Assembly: GCA_010093485.1 (NCBI GenBank)
Contig: MU001506.1
Location: forward strand, 496,001-560,000
Origin: Karstenula rhodostoma CBS 690.94
Taxonomy: Eukaryota; Ascomycota; Dothideomycetes; Pleosporales; Didymosphaeriaceae
Direction of reading: 5' to 3'
Length of the DNA: 64,000 bases
How positions within the stretch are numbered: the stretch's first letter is position 1; each line of letters begins with the position of its first letter. The position numbers and the translations under genes are program-made. Shown here piece by piece: positions 2,081-41,500 of this stretch. Below the pieces are notes generated by a model. That model did not search any database. It was not told the origin of the DNA and saw nothing but the letters and a program-made list of their open reading frames with translations.

Positions 2081-3292
2081 CCCTTCCGCTCCCCCACCTT
2101 CCACCTTCCACCTTTCTTCAACTCTTTCGCGCCTCTCATGGTAAGCTCTCTTCTTATCTTCTTCTCATTGAGTGCCACCTCACCGGCACCTTGCTGGCAG
2201 TGCCCTACAACAGCTTGTCACTGACAGCGCCTTGTTTCAATCCACGGTCGCCGCCGACGTCGTCGACGCTGGTGACTCGTCGCGTCGCAGCTCCTTGAAT
2301 GGCAGCTGCCCGAAACCTCTGTAAGTCTGCGTTCCTCTCTCCCTCACCTTCCCTCTACAGTTACGATGAGAACAGCCTGAGTTTCTTGCCTAGCTCTGTT
2401 ACAGCTGGTTGTTGGCAACAACCAGGTGCTTGAAAACAAGGCGGCTATCGCACCAACCCTTTGAACGCCTTTTTCCCCTCAGCTTTGCTCTCGCGCATCC
2501 AGCGACCTTGACTGATAGATCGCAGGCAGCCGGCCGCTTGCCAGGCCTCGGTCGGCAGCCACCCGATCACGCTCAATCACTGGTAAGTACCTCTCTTTTG
2601 CTATCATTTCCCCTCCCCTACCCCGCTTGTCATGATGATCGACGGCTCCTAGTAGTTACTGCTGGAAGAAACGCGCAACCGCTCTGAGGCATACCCTTTC
2701 ACTCACCATCGCGCACAATCTGTTCGCGACTTTGGCTGACATTGACATACAGAACTCATCATGGTACGGCTGGTAGCCATCACTGGCCAAGGTTTGTACT
2801 TCGCTGCCTGCACTCCACTGTACCCCATGATGATCACATATTAAGTGTGCAATCTGAAGCTCTCCGCAGCTGATGATCTTCTTCTTCAACCCACTGAGGC
2901 CTCCTTTCCCTCGTCTGCAGCGATACATCTCTCGAACAGCTGTTGACTTGGGCGCAGGTACACCCCACCTTGTTCACCACAAGTCCGACAAAGCATCGCT
3001 TCGCTTCAGTAAGTACCACCCTCTCACCACTTCAAGCACTTATGAGTGAAACAACCATCCTTTGACGGCCACTGAATAGTTCATGCTGGACAACGATGGA
3101 GCTGGTCAAGCAGGACAGCTATCATACTGAGGGCATCACCTATACATCATCTCGCGTCTTCACTATGTTGCGGGACGTCGCTGACTTCAAACTCCAGATA
3201 ATATTCTCTCATATACACTCACGATATTCGGCCCTCAGGCCCTTGACCCGACAACCAGCGGTCTTGTTGTCAGGCCTTTCTCCACAACCTTG

Positions 3293-3882
3293 GTAGGTCC
3301 AGCAGCCACCTGTGGCTTTCGGCCAGTGACGGTTGCTCGCACTTCGCTTCTACAGTGCGCGGCGTAAACCGCTGAGCCCTACATCAACATGCAGTTCTGG
3401 AGTCTGCGGACTATCCGACGAATTTTGGCGTAGGGGGTGACAGCCCTATGACGATCTCGAAGAGGAACCAGTCTGCGACATTCTTGCCACACGTGCCAAC
3501 CGCTTGAACGCGTGCTGACTGGACTACAGATCTTCATTCTATTTGATCAACATACCAATGGCATCACCTCATCGACACCATTTCTTTCAAGGTAAGTCCA
3601 GCAGCTGCCTATGGTACCGGGTCCCCCTTCCCCTTCCCCTTCCCCTTCCCCTTGTTTTTGTTTTTTGTTTTTTTGCATTCGGTCCTTGACGGTGCTCGCA
3701 CTTCGCTCCCACGGTGCGGGCGTTGAGATACTGGACCACACAACAACATGCAGACGGCATCCGACGCAATTCGGCATATGGGTTGACGGCCCCGATGACG
3801 CACGCACTAGGCCCCGTCTGCGACAGGCTTGGTACCATACGTACGAACAACCGAATGGTTTGCTGACTGGACTAGAGCTCAG
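3293..3882 (+). repeat. Pair of related intron-like elements (early subgroup)
   Basis: Two elements, 3293-3529 and 3592 to 3877/3882, are alignable by eye. Both begin GTARGTCCAGCAGC, share a block of the type TGACGGTGCTCGCACTTCGCT (3326 and 3688 areas), a CATGCAG...CGACG-AATT block and a GACGATCTC/TGCGACA block, and end in TGCTGACTGGACTA(C)AG. They flank a 62-nt exon-like piece (3530-3591). The second copy carries a pyrimidine insert made of CCCCTT units at about 3623-3653. Its acceptor is altered (ACTAGAG), so the functional end is uncertain. Confidence 0.65.
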
Positions 3883-3983
3883 AAACACATCGCTCTTGTG
3901 GCATGTCTTCCTAAACATCGACAGCCTCAACTACTGCGGCGAGGTCCTGATGGGCGCCACATCGCTGTCAACAATACATCATG

Positions 3984-5276
3984 GTAAGTTCTCAGCATTG
4001 TTCTCCGACCACCAAAGCCTCGCACATCTCACCTTTTTGGAAGATCATTGCTGACTGGACTTACAGGTTGCGAAGCCGACAGCCTGTTCTCCTTGGTAGG
4101 TCCCCAGCACTGTTCTTCGCATACATATGCTTTTCTTCAGGGTACCATCAGAGACCGGTACATAAAGACCCCTTGGTACTGGCTTTAACTGGGCCCGAGA
4201 TCAAACAAGCCTACCGGGATACTGGTTGGTCATCGCACATTGACTGTCCGGTATCACTCCACCGGCGGGTGTAGGTAGAGTGGCAGCATGCCTTCATGTC
4301 TTCTCCATGGCTGAAGGCATAGTCACTAAGGCCTCGCACATCTACGGTACTCGCAGAGTTTTGCTGACTGGACCTACAGACAACGACGTGCACACTACTG
4401 CTCAACCTCGAACACTCCGCATCTTCACTTCCCTCCATATCAAAGAAGTCCGCTCTCCAAACCGACCTGCAGAAGAAGCGCGCCTATCCAAAAGCTCGAT
4501 GGGGTACAACATTCCATCACGGCTCTCAAGCATGTGCTCAAGCGACGCCTTGCATAGTAAGTCCGTAGAATCAGACTGGATTCGCTTCCCCTTCCCTTTT
4601 CCCCTTCCCTTTTCCCCTTCCCCGGGCTCTTCAAACTGAATGTCTGTCTGAGGTCAGTGACATGACGGAAGAACGAGAGCCCAGATTAACCCGGTCTTTC
4701 GGTGGGTTGGGTTTGTATCTGGCCCTCCGGAATGATTGGGTCGAGGAGAGGTAGGTCTTCTTCAGCTTTCTCATGCCGTTGATAAGACCTCCGCCTCGGA
4801 CATCACAGCGTTCTCGATCTGTCGCTAACGGACTTACAGTTCATACAATATCATTCCCATCCGACTCCGGGTTCGTTTTAGATCGCGCAACTCCTCTATC
4901 TGCTACAAGATCGCTTCGGTGCTATCACCGCCTCGCTGGTAAGTTCACACCTCCATCGTCTCAAACCAAGAACACACTGTTGTGTATGGCGGCGGTACCA
5001 ACTTGCGCTTGCTGCCCTCTACAGCTTGTCGTGCCGGTATCGCCGCCTAGAGAAATAAACCGCATGGGCTCCAGATGGGTGAGCGCTCTGGCTTATGGCT
5101 TGTGGCGTGATCTCCTGACCTGACGGATGCGGAGAAGCTAGACTTCAATCTCATCAGAGACCTTGGGCGCGGTGTTCAGCCTGGCACTGTTCTGTGGCGC
5201 TCGAGGGTGTCTAGCTTCATACATTCCCTCTATATCGACTCGATTTGTTCATGATGAGAGGCTAACGAACTTACAG
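3984..5276 (+). repeat. Group of intron-like elements with shared ends
   Basis: Candidate introns 3984-4066 (83 nt), 4096-4379 (284 nt), 4751-4839 (89 nt) and 4939-5276 (338 nt), with a further donor at 4557. The first two share an internal CCTCGCACATCT block and the 3' end CTGACTGGACYTACAG. The last two end in CTAACGGACTTACAG or CTAACGAACTTACAG. The sequence after the 4557 donor holds a CCCCTT/TTCCC pyrimidine tract at about 4587-4623. Lengths vary widely but the terminal 15 nt are nearly constant, which is not expected for unrelated introns. Confidence 0.6.
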
Positions 5277-5543
5277 ATCATCTCTCGACTCAGAAGTCTT
5301 ACCGACGATTTGGGCCATGGCCTCTCTCTGCTTCGCGATACCTTCGGGCACTGTCAGGTAAGTCCGCAACCCCATCTTACCCAACTCACTAGGGCGCTTG
5401 TCTTCATCGGCACGGCATCGTATTGCGAGCGGTCGCGTCGCACAACGCCACCGCCGTCGCTTTCGAGACCATCTGGTCACAACGAGCGCAACGCACATTG
5501 TTCGCGCATGGCATCTTCTCTACGGAGCATAGAATTCAGATCA

Positions 5544-5767
5544 GTAAGTCCCTCGCTGCTTCACTTGCTCATACTCTAGGGCCGGCGACTATAGACGGCT
5601 AGCTCGTGCTTCTTCATAGCATCTTAGTTGGTAGTTCCAAGTCGCCGGCCTAGATCGACCTCACGGCATGGCTATGTCTGATCGTCCTTTCTTATGGAAA
5701 GCGGCGTGATTTCTTTGTGCCATGACATCCATTGTATCTGCTTTGAACGTAGCTGACGGACTTACAG
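5544..5767 (+). repeat. Introner-like element, late subgroup, copy 1
   Basis: A 224-nt element starting GTAAGTCC and ending GCTGACGGACTTACAG. The interior contains the subgroup hallmarks: GCCGGC, ACGGCTAGCTCGTGCTTC, TCATAGCAT, GCCGGCCTAGATCGA, then ATGACATC near the 3' end. It is the most diverged of the five late copies. Confidence 0.7.
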
Positions 5768-5858
5768 GGTTCAGACTTCATGATCGACGCTCTATGCGTG
5801 ACGCTCTATCTACGCTCGACTATCCATGTACGGCACTTCATACTCTGGAAAAAAAAAT

Positions 5859-6100
5859 GTAAGTCCATCAGCTTCTCCCCATCTACCATCTTCTTACTCC
5901 TATGGCCGGCGGCGAGACGGCTAGCTCGTGCTTCCTCATAGCATTCGTAGTTCGTGGCTTCGAAGTCGCCGGCCTAGATCGAATGACATGGGTGCGTTGG
6001 AGCGTCGTGCCTTTGGCTCGGCGTAACAGTAATTCGCTCGCATGACATCCCCTCACCACCAAGACTTGCTTTGGGACAACGGAAGCTAACGGACTTACAG
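5859..6100 (+). repeat. Introner-like element, late subgroup, copy 2
   Basis: A 242-nt element with intact ends, GTAAGTCC at the donor and GCTAACGGACTTACAG at the acceptor. The interior blocks CTCGTGCTTCCTCATAGCAT, CGTAGTTCG, GCCGGCCTAGATCGAATGAC, GTGCGTTGGAGCGTCGTG and GGCTCGGCGTAACAGTAAT are shared with the next copy almost base for base. Confidence 0.75.
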
Positions 6101-6121
6101 ATCACTCAACTGCCACACGAG

Positions 6122-6339
6122 GCGCTCAAGCTCCCATCCTCGGCGTGGCCGGCGTGACGGCACTCGTGCTTCCTCATAGCATACGTAGTTCGCAGTTATA
6201 CATCGCCGGCCTAGATCGAATTACATGGGTGCGTTGGAGCGTCGTGCTTTTGGCTCGGCGTAACAGTAATCCGCTCACATGACATCCCCGAGACTTGCTT
6301 TGGCACAATGGAAGCTGACAGACTTACATACCACTCCAG
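6122..6339 (+). repeat. Introner-like element, late subgroup, copy 3 with damaged splice sites
   Basis: The same interior as its neighbours (CTCGTGCTTCCTCATAGCAT, GCCGGCCTAGATCGAATTAC, GGCTCGGCGTAACAGTAAT), but the expected GTAAGTCCTCGAGCTC start reads GCGCTCAAGCTC and the expected CTTACAG end reads CTTACAT. The nearest usable acceptor is the AG at 6338-6339. If splicing runs from 5859 to 6339 the intervening piece 6101-6121 is skipped; otherwise that 21-nt piece keeps the same phase on both sides. Boundaries are approximate. Confidence 0.65.
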
Positions 6340-6378
6340 TGCCAAGGCACACAAGACGCTCATGCTGTTTCCCAACAG

Positions 6379-6595
6379 GTAAGTCCTCGAGCTCTCATCC
6401 TCAGTGTGGCCGGCGTGACGGCACTCGTGCTTCCTCATAGCATACGTAGTTCGCAGTTTTACAGCGCCGGCCTAGATCGAATGACATGGAAGCGTTGGGA
6501 GCGGTCTTGCCTGTGGCAGGTATCGCGACCGTCATCCGTGACCATGACATCTCTTCACCAAATCCATGTTTGGAAAATATCTAATGGACTTACAG
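6379..6595 (+). repeat. Introner-like element, late subgroup, copy 4
   Basis: A 217-nt element, GTAAGTCC to CTAATGGACTTACAG. It shares with copy 3 the segment after the donor (TGTGGCCGGCGTGACGGCAC) and with copy 5 the 3' half (TGCCTGTGGC, ATCGCGAC, CATGACATCTCTTC, CCATGTTTGGA). Confidence 0.75.
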
Positions 6596-6648
6596 ATCAC
6601 TTGACCCCATTCTGGAAACACGCAGCATCCTGCGACATCGCTCACATG

Positions 6649-6866
6649 GTAAGTCCATCAGCTCCACCCTTTCCAACGTGGCCGGCGAGACGGTGCTCGT
6701 GCTTCCTTATAGCATACGTAGTTCGCAGTTATAATCGCCGGCCTAGATCGAATGACATGGGTGCGTTGGAAGCGTGCGTGCCTGTGGCGCGTATCGCGAC
6801 TGTAATTCGTAGCCATGACATCTCTTCGCCAAATGCATGTTTGGAGAAAAGCTAATGGACTTACAG
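6649..6866 (+). repeat. Introner-like element, late subgroup, copy 5
   Basis: A 218-nt element, GTAAGTCC to GCTAATGGACTTACAG, closely matching copy 4 over its whole length. It follows a 53-nt piece ending in ATG at 6646-6648 and precedes the terminal exon-like piece 6867-7153. Confidence 0.75.
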
Positions 6867-7153
6867 GTTTGGCCGTCGAAGCCTTTGCCAGGCAAGCTTG
6901 CGCAATTGCGCCCGATACCCCGCGAATGCTCGTACGCACCCCCGCTCGTTCCGCTGTCGCTATCGACAGTCTACACCTTCACGTTGCAAGAAGGTCTAGC
7001 TCGCAGAACTATACCGCCACGTTGCACATTCTGGAATCGATACACAAGACACAAGTAGAGGGAATGTGGCGGGGGAGAATACGGAGCAGGTGCGACGACA
7101 CGCTGGCATGGCTGGATGGTTCGGGTCGCATTTATTCCATGAGTGTGACCTGA

Positions 7154-7489
7154 TTGCTCCAGCCTAGAACAAACCAAGCGCAGTGGTAAGCAGTAGCAAG
7201 CAGGCTGCGCTGTTGTGCTCTATCCCCCCGATTGTGTATATTATCGGCGAGCGTCAAGTATGGAGGTCTACAAATACTCGCATCCAATGACTTCGGCGCC
7301 GGGGTGAGCCAACGGACATCTTTTCATGATAGAGGATATGTAGTAAATACTTTGATTATCTCTGTCTAGAACATGCAAGTCATTGAGTACCAATAAGTTA
7401 GTGATAGCAGTCGAAGAGAACTGATTCACAAGAAGCCCGTATTACCAAGCTTTCCTTATGCCGGCGACTCAAACATGAGCAAAGAAAGC
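7154..7489. other. Convergent intergenic gap
   Basis: About 335 bp between the end of the multi-intron locus (+) and the stop of the Zn2Cys6 gene (-). It should hold both 3' ends; nothing else was recognised. Confidence 0.5.
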
Positions 7490-10163
7490 TCAGAAAGTGC
7501 CACCCATGTCAAAGTTCCAGAAATCCGGGAACGTCCAGCCCGACAGATCCACCTGCATATCCTGCAGCTCGTCGAAAGCTCCTTCTCCTATGCCCTTGCC
7601 TTCGTTGAGCGAACTCGCGATAGCGCCGGCCCCAGGGATTATCGTGGGTAGGTCTCCACCGAGTCTCCCACCACCAAGACTACTTCCATACATAGGGGGA
7701 CCCGTCAGCGGGCCGAGGCTCGAAGCTGGCGTCATCGGCGAGGGCACTGTGACGCTCTGGCGCAGAGAGTTTACGAGCGAATCGGCTGGTTCTTTCTGCA
7801 GCGCGAGGACGCGGAAACAAAGCGACGTCACGCGCTCGAGCGACTTGCGTCCTCGCGAGCGTAGATCGTCGGATGTAGCGTTGGTAATGGACGCAATAGA
7901 AGTGCCTCGGTCCTGGTTGACGTTCGGCATGATGCCCTGCGCGGAGCAGAGAAGAAAGTATTCCATGTAGCCGGTGCCGAGACGCATGACCTTGTGCTCG
8001 AAGCACTGGCGGACTCTTTCGATGAGATTGACGGCAGTCATGCATAGCGTTGATGCAAGCAGACTGTCTGTGGGGAGCTGAGGAATCTTAAGCTCTGGGG
8101 AACCATCGGGACGCTGCTGTTTGGATGACGCGCCGACGTCGATAGGGTGGATGTAGTCCTTGTGGTTGGGCGCATCGCGACCCTCTGCCGGTGATGCGTG
8201 GAAGCAGTTGTGGTATACCGTTTGAGCGAGCGCCATGCCAGCCCGCAGAGCGTCATTGCGAAGGTGGTTCAACGCTAGTACATTCTTTGCGAGAAGTTGC
8301 TCGTGGAGCATCAATATCGTACTTGCGGCCTCGATGCAAGCTGTGAAAGAGAAACTGAAGCGCTTGTTTACAGCCGCGTGTGTAGCGTATGGCCGGTGCA
8401 GTATTAAGAGGAACTGCAAGAGCTGCAATTTGAGTAACGCAGAGGGGATGCCGGCTCTGGGGTCGGTCCAGTTCGGCAGGATGTTCAGCATGGCGTTCAG
8501 CTGGCCATCGTAGTGGAGAATATCAGAGTATTGGAGCTCGGTCGTGGGGTTGTTCAACAGTTGTAGAAGATGAAGGCGGAGAGGCATCGATTGTAGCGAT
8601 ACGATCAGATATGAAGTGGAGGTGAAGTGTTCGATCGGACGCCCTGCTGGAATCTGGGTCGTGTCCGCCGCGAAAGTTTCATCCGGAAGATTGGATGGGG
8701 CTTGGACATCAAAGTAGAGACCGCAGGCCGAAGATGGTAAGCCGCAGTCAACCGAGCATTGTAGCTCGAGCTCCACGATAGTCAGCCAGACCCTTCTCCG
8801 CATCTCCTTCTCGAACTCGCTAATACGACCCCTCGAGATTAGCGAGGGGTTTCGATGTAAGCCTGCTGCGATGGCGAGCCGAATGATGTCGCCGGAAGTT
8901 GTCCAATCCTGCTTGAGCTTTAGACAATTCAGTCGTTTTGCGAGAAGAGAGAGACATTGAAGCTGAAAGAAAGTGAGGGTGGTCTGTTTCCGCGACTGCC
9001 GCTGCAACCACATGTCGCATGTTTCGATAAAATCGAGAGCGGTATCGCGATCGACTGCGCTGTCGCCCACGAAGATGTTGCCGTCGTTTGGTTGCAGGCA
9101 CTTGGTGATCGCAAGGATGTACAAGAGAATAGCGGCAAAGGGCGTGAGAGACTCATCGTTAGATTGCCGGTCCCAGAAGGCTTGATATTCTCTCCAGAAG
9201 CTCGGTTCATGCAATATGCGGTAGGATGTCTCGCATGTCTGGAAGTACAATGCGACCTGGGGATCGAGCGTGGTTTTGTCGGGTAACTGAAGGAAGATTT
9301 CTTCATCGTAACCGCGCCTTCGTGCATTTTTTTCCTTCATCATTGCCTTCCTGCGGACTCTGAAGGCTTTGAAGTCGTCCCGGACATGGCCCATGTTGCC
9401 TGATGAGGTTACCGATTCTCTCGTGAAAGCCCGGAGCTCGGAGAACTGTCCAAGATTAGCCTAAAATATATAGGCCTATAACTGAAAGTACAAACCTGTG
9501 TTAGCGCGCTGAGGGGACATGTTGAGCCGTAAAACCGAGTTTTGAAGGCTTTGCCTCGAAACATCATTTCCTCGTGCATGCGAGTTTCATCCGCTTTGAA
9601 GTCGTGGAAGTGTGACGGAGACAAGTCGTACGCGTGAACACCTGCGCCGCTCTGCGCCGCCAGCTTGTTCTCCAGTTGCTCCAGTCGTCTCTCTTGTACT
9701 GAGCGTGCATGATCAGTACCAGCTCATGCATACTTAGTCTGGCGAACTCGCTTACCTCGTAGCTTCCAACTCACAAGATCAGAAGAGCCAGCTCCACTCG
9801 GAGGGCTGTCGTGTTGTACAAAGCTCGGTGGATCCGCGTAACCATCTCCATTGACAGGTATGTCCTCTAGCAATCGAGGGTCGTAGGTGCACTGGTCCGC
9901 TCTTCCGGTCCTTTGGCAACGTCCACAAATGGGATCTAGACCACAAGGCGTCAGCCACAACAGAGTCACAGTATTCAAGTGCACAGAACAAGAACGAAGA
10001 TCATGTTCCGGAGACACGTCACAAGTTACATACAAACTCGATCACACTTCATCTTCCGATTTCTGCAAGCGTAGCATGATAACACTTTCCGCTTCTTACT
10101 GGCGCGCTTCTCAGCCGACGCGTCTGGCGAATTATCGCGCGACTCAACACTCTTGGTAGACAT
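7490..10163 (-). CDS. Zn2Cys6 fungal-specific transcription factor
   Basis: A nuclear DNA-binding regulator of 822 residues in four exons: 10163-10034, 9935-9756, 9698-9496 and 9445-7490. Introns are 98, 57 and 50 nt and the phases agree. The first intron splits the zinc cluster: exon 1 ends CYACRNRKMKCDRV and exon 2 supplies YPICGRCQRTGRADQC, giving a complete CX2CX6CX6CX2CX8C binuclear cluster. A short basic/leucine-rich linker (ERRLEQLENKL) follows. The large last exon carries the fungal_trans regulatory domain, including LYFQTCETSYRILHEPSFW. The start chosen is MSTKSVE; the frame is open further upstream with another ATG, but the extension is low-complexity. Target genes cannot be read from sequence. 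It lies 2.8 kb from the GH7 gene, which alone does not make it a cellulase regulator. Confidence 0.9.
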
Positions 10164-38562: not shown

Positions 38563-41500
38563 CTACGTCGACTTTGTAGAGACAGCACTGCTGCGAAGCG
38601 TGGTGGGCGCTGGCGTAGGGATGAGGATATAGTATATTTCTGTCGGCAAGTCCGTTGTTGATGGCTCTTTGCTTTGTCCTGGTGTGCTCGGGCCGTCGTC
38701 ACTGTATGTGCCCTCTACCCACACCGTGACTGTGCTCGCCCACACCGTGACTGTGCTCGTTTCCAGTCCTTGAGGATAGTCACTAGGAGGATGTGTCGTA
38801 CTCGACCTGCTAGTAGCGGAAGGGAGTTTAGAGTTTGATTTGCTGTGTCCTGGTATGCTCGGGCCGCCGTCACTGTATGTGCCTTCTACCCACACCGTGA
38901 CTGTGCTCGCCCACACCGTGGCTGTGCTCGCCCACACCGTGACTGTGCTCGTTTCCTGCTCTTCAGGATAGTAACTGGGAGGACGTGTCGTACTCGACTT
39001 GCTAGTAGCGGATGGAAGCTTAGAGTTTGATTTGCTGTGTCCTGGTGTGCTCGGGCCGCCGTCACTGTATGTGCCCTCTACCCACACCGTGACTGTGCTC
39101 GCCCACACCGTGGCTGTGCTCGCCCACACCGTGACTGTGCTCGTTTCCTGCTCTTCAGGATAGTAACTGGGAGGACGTGTCGTACTCGACTTGCTAGTAG
39201 CGGATGGAAGCTTAGATCTCGACTTGCTAGCAGTAACAGAGGGATATTTGGAGTTCCACTTTTCAGCAGCGGACGAATATGTGCTGTTCGACTTGCCGGT
39301 AGTAGACGAAGAATTAGCTGGCCACTGATCGGCCTCATGATCATACCAAGCCGCAGTGAGGTTGTTGCGTTCTTTGTTCAAGCCATCCTCGATGTCCGCT
39401 TCGATTCCTAGCTGCTGCCTTCCGAAATCCGTGTCGGTTGTGTCCCAGCAGTGCTTCCAGAGGTTAATGTGATATATAAGGCCATTAAAGCCCTTAACAC
39501 CTGTCTTGATCCAGCCGGTGGAGATTTGGAAGCCGCCAGGGAGATCGAGTCCAGCGTAAATACCAAACCTAAGATCCACTTCGACACCGACGGCGGTCTT
39601 GAAGCCGCCGCCTGGCTCGCACTTCTTATCGACATCTATGAGCCAGTAGTTAGCGTTAAGGACGCGAGTAAGGGATAGAAGAGAGGAAGTTACCTTCTTT
39701 AGTGGAAACCTTGAACTCAATTCCTGGTATTTCGGCTTTGGCGGAGATACCAATCTTGAAAGCAGGCTTAAAGGAAGCACGTGGAGCGATGTCACTCATT
39801 TTTTCGCTTTGAATTCCAGCTGCACCGTCGCTCTTGTTTCCAAATGGAGCAACCCCAACCTCAGAGCGCTTGTCTCCACCTACGCCTGGAACTGAGACTC
39901 CAGCTCCAGTTGAGCTCCCACTGCTCCCACCGTATGCTGCTCCAAAAGACAACGTCATAGCAGGGCCAATGGCAATATAACCATCCCACTCCAAGTGTTT
40001 TGCCTGGAAGTTGGGCTTAGTCCACTTGACCTCACCATCAAACTTCGACTGGAATTTCTCGCTGTTCTTGCGTCCGTAACCAGCGACCGAACCTTTGGGT
40101 ACGTGGACCTCTATGCCAGGCAAAGTACTGCACCGAATGTCAGTAGGCTTGCATAAAGAATACGGCGATCTGGTGACATATGGGGACCATGGGGCTGTGG
40201 AAGACAATAGGGATGCGCCTGTGCGTGCCCATAGGGCGCCCGCGAGCAGGAGGGATTGTGGGGTGAGTCCGTACAGATTGAATATGCCCGACGTCGAGAT
40301 AGTGGACCATACAGCCAAGCCAGCCCCAACTGTAGCCCCAAAACCGTTAATCTAATTTAATTAGCCTGTCGTCGCTGGAGCAGTGGGCGCGCGACCTCAT
40401 TGGCAAGCATGGAGATAACTTACACCGGCAATATCAGAAAATTTATGTTTGTTGCTTTTCCCCGACGGATCCCCGGCGGCGGGAAGGTCCCACATGAAGA
40501 GATCACCGCTCACCAGAGGACCCACCGAGCATGCCATATCCTCGGGAGGATACAAGAACGCTGTACAAGAACCAACGAATCCCAGAGTCCCCGCGAGCTC
40601 CGCTTGAAGCCGGATGGCCAGGTCTTCCGTCGCCTCAACTTCAACGTAGAAGTCAGTCAAAGAATCTTTAAAAATGTCCTTCATTGATGCATCAAAGCCA
40701 TCCTCTCCGCCATCCCTCAACAGGTCTGCCGCCCCTTTGATACTGAAGCTGATCACGGCCCTAACGTCAAGATGCACCTTTGCGTACGAGTTTACTAGCG
40801 TTAAGTTGGGCCATATTTCACCGTGGCCACTGGATTTCAGGATTGGTACCCGGTTCTCTGCTGCGCCGTAAGTCCTGTTTTTACCGATATGCGTGGTCTC
40901 GTTCAGGTTATGATCGAAATCGATAGACACGGATTTGTTCAAGCTGAAACCGCTCTTTTCGAGGCCATCCAGGATATCCGCAATTCCTTCAAGTGTGACC
41001 TCTTTGAATTCTTTCTCAAGCTCGGCCAGTGGATTACCATCGCCTTTTAAAGGATTCTCGATATCTTCTAAAGGGTTTTCGATATCTTCTAAAGGGTTCT
41101 CGCGTTTCGACAGATGCTCAGAGATGCCGGTCTTCAGTCGCGGTGTAAGATAGAAGCGCAATGCAGGATCTCGCTTCTTCAAAGATGCAAAAGAGCCCGT
41201 GAAAATGGTAACTGAGTGGGCTGCTTCAGCTTCGTACGGTCCAAAGCTCAAGTTCTCTGCGGAGATCTCCATCGACAAGCTTGCGTCGTCGAAAGTCATA
41301 CCCTCCGACCTGCGTGAGTGTTGAGCACAAGGGCAAAACGTATCCACGGGTAACAAGACACATACCGATACACCGACCGAATATTGGGGCCCTCATGGCA
41401 AGAACCGTCCTCAACCACGAATAGGAGGCCAGGGTCTTGCCAGCTCTCCTTGGCAGCTTTATACGTATCGTTGTATCGAAAATCAAGGTTGACGACGGAG

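Follow-up and report, generated by a model that had tools for sequence, protein, structure and literature searches.

Why does a single locus of a fungal genome carry a series of introns with nearly the same ends and, in groups, nearly the same interior? We studied this in a 64,000-nucleotide stretch of Karstenula rhodostoma CBS 690.94 (assembly GCA_010093485.1, contig MU001506.1, positions 496,001 to 560,000), which is called the window here and is numbered from its first base. An earlier note had described these introns as an introner-like array. In our judgment, the region is quite probably a UHG-like host gene of small nucleolar RNAs (snoRNAs), with a tandem-grown array of intron-borne guide RNAs and with stems that close the intron ends; that it hosts snoRNAs at all is, taken separately, highly probable.

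Introns were drawn from consensus sites between approximately 2.1 and 7.2 kb and numbered i1 to i16. The support given with the features below consists of the number of shuffled sequences scoring as well, the number of tiles from the rest of the window (944 tiles) doing so, or the z value of the fold. The strict pocket test requires a pocket 13-17 nt upstream of both boxes, where the distance expected of guide pockets is about 14-16 nt, and the H/ACA scanner was run without a positive control.

2100..7200 (limits approximate), + strand: putative host transcript unit, drawn from consensus sites; 15-intron model checked for GT/AG ends.
2583..2752, + strand: intron i3 with candidate box C/D RNA (C box 2632, D box 2684); 0 of 500 shuffles as good.
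2792..2957, + strand: intron i4 with candidate box C/D RNA (C box 2827, D box 2894); 0 of 500 shuffles as good.
3293..3529, + strand: intron i6, H/ACA-like body, paired ends; 0 of 60 shuffles, strict pocket test failed; paralogue of i7.
3592..3875, + strand: intron i7, H/ACA-like RNA at 3681-3828; 1 of 60 shuffles, strict pocket test passed (2 of 944 tiles as good).
3984..4066, + strand: intron i8, 83 nt, paired ends kept, without snoRNA body; match to i9, fold z -3.59.
4096..4379, + strand: intron i9, paired ends GTAGGTCC/GGACCTAC; structured body, z -4.18, no H/ACA call in three scans.
4387..4500, + strand: exon piece from the Use1 gene (contig C1); 104 of 116 columns identical.
4557..4839, + strand: intron i10, paired ends, structured body; fold z -4.08, no H/ACA call in three scans.
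4939..5276, + strand: intron i11, paired ends GTAAGTTC/GAACTTAC, weak H/ACA-like body; fold z -3.61.
5358..5767, + strand: intron i12 (i12b if the donor is 5544), H/ACA-like RNA at 5578-5730; strict pocket test passed (1 of 944 tiles as good).
5859..6100, + strand: intron i13, H/ACA-like RNA at 5902-6050; 0 of 60 shuffles, strict pocket test failed, z -3.58.
6102..6331, + strand: copy i14, apparently recombinant, splice sites lost, H/ACA-like RNA at 6145-6287; 4 of 60 shuffles.
6379..6595, + strand: intron i15, H/ACA-like RNA at 6406-6552; 0 of 60 shuffles, strict pocket test failed.
6649..6866, + strand: intron i16, H/ACA-like RNA at 6680-6823; 0 of 60 shuffles, strict pocket test failed, z -4.97.

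From i6 (3293) onward, every live donor is GTAAGTCC or differs from it by one letter. The exact form stands at 3592, 4557, 5358, 5544, 5859, 6379 and 6649, GTAGGTCC at 3293 and 4096, and GTAAGTTC at 3984 and 4939. As two GTAAGTCC donors, 5358 and 5544, compete for the one acceptor of i12 (5767), eleven donors make ten introns, namely i6-i13, i15 and i16, which span 3293-6866 and form the paired-end class; the ends of i1-i5 are not of this type. The claim of a donor shared by at least ten introns in the earlier note thus holds for related donors, but the exact sequence is found in only 7 of the 11. In the acceptors of the class, GGACTTACAG or a near variant comes after the branch sequence CTRAY. 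Exact GGACTTACAG occurs at six sites of the locus, and all six have CTRAY, or CTRAY plus one base, directly before it, as claimed for all; the remaining acceptors are variants, i.e., GGACCTACAG (4379), GAACTTACAG (5276), GGACTACAG (3529, with a one-base deletion in i6) and GGACTAG(AG) (3875/3877), and copy i14 ends in a dead acceptor, AGACTTACAT. This copy (approximately 6102-6331), having lost both donor and acceptor, can no longer be regarded as an intron of its own. Sharing of interiors within subgroups was confirmed: the alignment of the five late copies extends across the entire unit, with a mean column identity of 74%, i6 and i7 form a second related pair, and i8 and i9 have 57 nt in common at 77% in their 3′ part. 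CTRAYNGGACYTACAG occurs twice in the whole assembly, at i8 and i9, and its reversed control not at all, so this sharing exceeds chance. In the last units, the 25-nt acceptor repeat (family D3) has a start-to-start spacing of 229-271 nt, where a period of about 260-270 bp had been proposed before.

A protein search with the joined exons, in which 7995 candidates from 5.8 billion sequences were scored, returned a single match at E ≤ 10, the K. rhodostoma hypothetical protein P171DRAFT_86579 (284 aa). With 3875 as the end of i7, introns i2-i11 give exactly this protein in the frame 2299-5392; the public model runs through the donor at 5358 and stops at 5392. It agrees with ten junction pairs, six of them of the paired-end class, and its support covers i2-i11, with i12-i16 lying outside its reach. 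Genome centres' gene models commonly draw on transcript data. The splice-site layout of i2-i11 is in agreement with an independent gene model, and an intergenic satellite, considered as a source of the repeats, was rejected because the public model splices across these introns. Two choices of acceptor stand beside this layout: i7, ending at 3875 in the public model, could also end at 3877, and acceptor 6595 may serve donor 5859 instead of the donor of i15, in which case the single intron 5859-6595 would contain three RNA copies. A promoter and terminator scan of 1800-2200, using a program designed for bacteria, found none.

The shared ends of the class are complementary to each other. An 8-bp stem between donor and acceptor has standard pairs in 64 of 64 cells in the eight gap-free introns (i6 and i7 are omitted due to the one-base acceptor deletion, and i12 is entered by the 5544 donor only), compared to 16-39% of cells in slid registers. 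Both variable pairs of the stem are changed on both sides, from A-U to G-C in i9 and from C-G to U-A in i11. The covariation score was reached by 15 of 500 shuffles, and swapped donor-acceptor pairs were as good in 1440 of 40320 permutations (exact 0.036). Since just three introns vary, we take this covariation as support for the stem and not as proof. For the intron alone, the donor is predicted to pair with the final 20 nt at 0.62-1.00 in the class against 0.06-0.23 in i1-i5; with 30-nt exon flanks included, the class ranges from 0.61 to 1.00, except for i12 from 5358. Selection on the terminal stem appears reasonably probable.

Next to the paired ends, the interiors have features of guide RNAs. 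Using the box C/D criteria (C box RTGATGA, D box CTGA, terminal stem), candidates with perfect C and D boxes were found in i3 (stem of 4 bp) and i4 (stem of 2 bp; also a weak sR3 match of 15.4 bits at a cut-off of 41), and none in i1, i2 and i5 in the same scan. The hairpin-hinge-hairpin-ACA fold of H/ACA RNAs was detected in i6, i7, i13, i15 and i16, for which 0-1 of 60 shuffles scored as well, and in i14, for which 4 of 60 did. This shuffle-controlled scan gave no hit in i9, i10, i11, i12a and i12b; a wider scan added i12b, the fold of which (5544-5767) has a z of -6.33, and a weak i11 (-41.9, with 107 of 944 tiles as good), the latter again missing in the strict scan. The strict pocket test was passed by two different families, i7 and i12b. 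A strict ANANNA hinge box is present in i6 (ACATCA) and i7 (ACAACA). The ACA end lies 37-50 nt upstream of the 3′ splice site in seven of the eight units scored, the distance in i14 being measured to its dead splice site; in the eighth, i6, it is 35 nt according to the scan and 46 nt if ACATTC at 3478 is taken from the alignment with i7. For comparison, snR191 is located in a NOG2 intron of the same genome (L064 2197-2515, 319 nt; 53.2 bits in Rfam at a gathering score of 46), and its ACA end is found 53 nt before an acceptor (L064 2515) which keeps the NOG2 frame. The secondary-structure prediction proposed by the earlier note gave z values of -3.58 to -6.33 for i8-i11, i12b, i13 and i16, and weak folding for i7 as a whole (z -1.46, 17 of 200 shuffles as good). 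Introns i9, i10 and i11 have strong predicted folds over their entire length but are not certified as H/ACA RNAs. In contrast, i6, i7, i12b, i13, i15, i16 and the dead copy i14 look like H/ACA RNAs, judged by fold and conservation only. Several candidate snoRNAs, one per intron of one transcript, are therefore what the locus contains, with splicing past i11 lying outside the public model.

Conservation was analyzed in the five late copies, which all duplicate one unit and, hence, make unequal conservation informative. Mean identity is highest in ACA plus three bases (0.90), followed by the hinge (0.85), hairpin 1 (0.79), branch sequence and acceptor (0.78) and hairpin 2 (0.61), and lowest in the 3′ flank (0.47) and the 5′ flank (0.28). 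The position of the ACA is constant. The bodies of the late copies are conserved over their flanks. The consensus fold has 45 pairs, 4 of them with double-sided change, and a covariance model of this family (R1) found the five training copies and one further match at E 1.4 in the window. In a self-comparison, a 736-column match at 76% spans both exons and introns of the late units; segmental duplication of exon-intron units, which had been considered as an alternative in the earlier note, is what these tandem units point to. Hairpin 1 of i14 matches i15 (66 of 69) and its hairpin 2 matches i13 (56 of 60), so i14 looks recombinant. Intron i8 resembles an i9 that lacks the body but retains ends and flanks, the 5′ part being judged by eye. 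On sequence comparison, the array appears to have arisen from exon-intron units that were duplicated in tandem and recombined unequally; later, i8 would have lost its body and i14 would have decayed. The result is an apparent snoRNA birth-and-death array, in which intact units stand next to empty, chimeric and decayed ones. Between i9 and i10, a 114-bp piece was found which is not repeated: it is a copy, 90% identical, of a part of the Use1 gene (source L015 1501-1616; Pfam Use1 43.2 bits at a cut-off of 38.3). This piece is a captured gene fragment, and its frame differs from that of Use1 if the public model is right.

The description as introner-like elements implies a mobile intron family with repeated insertion, in this case into the same gene over and over. 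The introns are indeed alike and have terminal inverted repeats, inverted repeats have been reported for some fungal introner-like elements and for sister stwintrons (here and below, published systems are cited from parts of the sources), and stable secondary structure is predicted as well, though weakly for i7. However, a genome-wide DNA search, proposed to see whether copies occur in the introns of other genes, found five matches of i13 in the assembly, all of them in this locus, and the 5.1-kb locus as a whole found itself and one other place, the source of the exon piece, among the best candidates scored. GGACTTACAG has 52 sites in the assembly, which equals the number for the reversed control; six of these are in this locus. 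CTRAY is within one base of GGAC in none of the 46 other sites, in contrast to 6 of 6 here, and somewhere within approximately 30 nt in 5 of the 46; one further site (L022) has GTAAGTCC upstream and no branch sequence. In addition, the duplicated units include exons, and no target-site duplications were found, the longest direct flank match in 15 introns being 2 nt. In this last respect, ascomycete introner families lack such duplications anyway, as stated in the part of PMC12403724 used here. With the DNA and pattern searches of the whole genome both speaking against it, repeated insertion of an introner is very improbable, the shared interior is better read as an H/ACA-type snoRNA, and a false introner candidate is removed.

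Several observations weigh against the snoRNA host as we describe it. Without the pocket, the H/ACA scan is unspecific, as 69 of 944 background tiles reach -47, and single introns are equalled by between 9 (i6) and 107 (i11) of the tiles. The strict pocket test was failed by i6, i9, i10, i11, i13, i15 and i16, and i14 passes it solely in another register and is, therefore, not counted. At the ANANNA position, the late family has AGATCG, which is one letter off. No Rfam match at gathering scores was obtained in the whole window; lax searches returned SMCR2_1 and sR3 only, far below their cut-offs, and none in 5340-6870. Ribosomal DNA was not found in the assembly by two exact patterns (conserved 18S and 28S motifs), nor in two other collections; it may be missing from the assembly. 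Within the late copies, hairpin 2 is the less conserved of the two hairpins, and the alignment shows little covariation, with a slightly unfavourable covariation term (+1.04). Concerning the stem, the predicted pairing of i12 from 5358 drops to 0.00 with exon flanks, and that of i2, which is outside the class, climbs to 0.63. The snR191 intron has no stem (pairing 0.05 alone and 0.0005 with flanks), so that long or H/ACA introns of this fungus do not generally require a stem. Furthermore, the GGACTTACAG sites of L032 and L057 may belong to paired introns elsewhere (end pairing 0.92 and 0.75), having a GTRRGT donor 163 and 154 nt upstream and CTRAY 9 and 5 nt before GGAC, respectively. They may be paired-end introns unrelated to the class, or arise by chance, because any GTRRGT pairs well with ACTTAC. 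Finally, a 416-codon frame is open through the exons.

This frame extends over 2299-7153 if i7 ends at 3875, i12 begins at 5358 and 5859-6595 is a single intron. None of 1000 shuffles reached its length, the model having been chosen among about eight, and 3 of 1000 reached that of the public 284-aa model. An ordinary protein-coding gene with incidental RNAs would account for such a frame. However, the sole match of the joined exons is the organism's own model, and no homologues outside the organism were found at E ≤ 10 among the 7995 candidates scored, compared to 161 matches at E ≤ 0.001 for the neighbouring gene (7490-9460, minus strand), which is 100% identical to a protein of CBS 690.94. 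The codon score of the 416-codon frame, -0.045 per codon, is close to that of the next frame (-0.054) and far from that of the neighbouring gene (+0.153), the latter being a window open reading frame possibly among those that trained the score, and third-position G+C is 0.50 in the frame vs. 0.64. A coding gene also leaves unexplained why the bodies are conserved and the flanks are not. We therefore consider it unlikely that the RNAs are incidental to a protein-coding gene. The host is probably non-coding, though this is unsettled; our earlier view that it must be non-coding was weakened because the frame is open. Separately, i14-i16 were read unspliced as protein, and none of 39 candidates reached E ≤ 10.

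For the snoRNA host, the following order of events is proposed. One transcript (approximately 2.1-7.2 kb) would be spliced with the introns as its product, yielding box C/D RNAs from i3 and i4 and H/ACA-type RNAs from most introns from i6 onward. In i6-i16, the 8 nt of the 5′ splice site would pair with the tract before the terminal AG, adjoining the branch sequence. Splicing would free each intron, and the stem would make a closed unit of the structured intron, both before debranching and afterwards, which would separate the guide-RNA body from its neighbours. After debranching, the stem would join the two ends during assembly of the H/ACA particle and trimming of the tails, with exonucleases trimming to the particle. 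The splicing step leans on the gene model, and we infer expression, guide function and every processing step. The closed-unit role of the stem is proposed tentatively, as the likeliest of those considered.

Two other roles of the stem were weighed. The predicted introns are closed by stems of 8-10 bp that run on into a second helix, and these stems could be sites of RNase III or another endonuclease, so that a cut of the precursor would free the snoRNA and splicing would be secondary. An RNase III cleavage hairpin tied to a snoRNA intron junction has been described in fission yeast; however, the arrangement differs, as splicing there first joins the exons and the hairpin then spans their junction. 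Here, both strands of the stem keep splice-site sequence, six such introns are spliced in the public model, and in the dead copy i14 the two splice sites disappeared together. Cleavage at the stems is improbable on this evidence. Alternatively, the acceptor tract may copy the ACUUAC of U1 small nuclear RNA and compete for the 5′ splice site, thereby acting as a brake which delays splicing until the H/ACA particle has formed. ACTTAC is indeed common to the acceptors and, in this genome, to the 5′ terminus of a U1-like gene (match of 45.5 bits, below the cut-off of 69.5, with ATACTTACC at the first base of the match), and the stem begins at intron base 1, unlike zipper stems, for which a linker of 42-85 nt is given in the part of the source used. 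On the other hand, snR191 in its NOG2 intron manages without a stem, and i8 retains the stem without a body. Such a brake is a doubtful but real possibility, in our view nearly as likely as the closed-unit role, with the RNase III site less likely. For the snoRNA host with paired splice sites, the stem poses the question of how the spliceosome uses splice sites hidden in their own stem, and whether this serves guide-RNA maturation. Speculatively, some snoRNA introns may form a class of their own, with a 3′ splice-site tract that co-evolves with the 5′ splice site as its complement and acts as a built-in U1 mimic, so that self-closed introns would be opened by the spliceosome coupled to H/ACA assembly, and tandem duplication would breed new guide RNAs.

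Apart from this locus, the window contains a tandem repeat at 38718-39216 with a 192-bp unit, 2.6 copies and internal 21-bp repeats.

Compared to other introns with related or paired ends, the introner-like elements of Dothideomycetes are alike in being similar introns with terminal inverted repeats, but the Karstenula introns are confined to one locus. Mirtrons also pair their two intron ends, without having a snoRNA body. In yeast zipper stems, pairing within the intron likewise brings the splice sites together, as far as the consulted part of the source goes. Fungal clusters in which each intron bears a single box C/D snoRNA are already known: Neurospora clusters I-V and the clusters snR78-72, snR57-61 and snR41-51 are UHG-like polycistronic hosts (PMC2780460; PMC3596301). 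In the parts of these papers considered, such hosts resemble the locus by one snoRNA per intron, a multi-intron transcript and short exons, and by intron loss, gain and decay. These clusters are of the box C/D type, whereas here H/ACA-like units dominate, with tandem paralogues and paired splice sites. Of the 20 H/ACA genes of Neurospora, 16 lie between genes and 2 within introns, and the hosts have short open frames only (159-267 bp), in contrast to up to 416 codons here (PMC2780460). Among the matches listed, no title or abstract described an H/ACA array with paired splice sites, and the tandem H/ACA-like series in combination with full pairing between the 5′ splice site and the 3′ splice-site tract seems to be new. 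The nearest printed parallel among the papers considered (PMC12403724) is NTIRE-10 in the sister stwintrons of Hypoxylaceae and Xylariaceae, where complementary elements of approximately 10 nt are located near both intron ends and compensating changes occur in some pairs. In the [D1,2] type of sister stwintron, an internal intron splits the outer donor between its first and second base; in the Karstenula locus, the two donors 5358 and 5544 facing one acceptor are all that was noticed in this respect. Sister stwintrons are found in different genes, are nested introns, and have these elements a few bases inside their ends, whereas in Karstenula the introns are gathered in one gene and pair from their first base.

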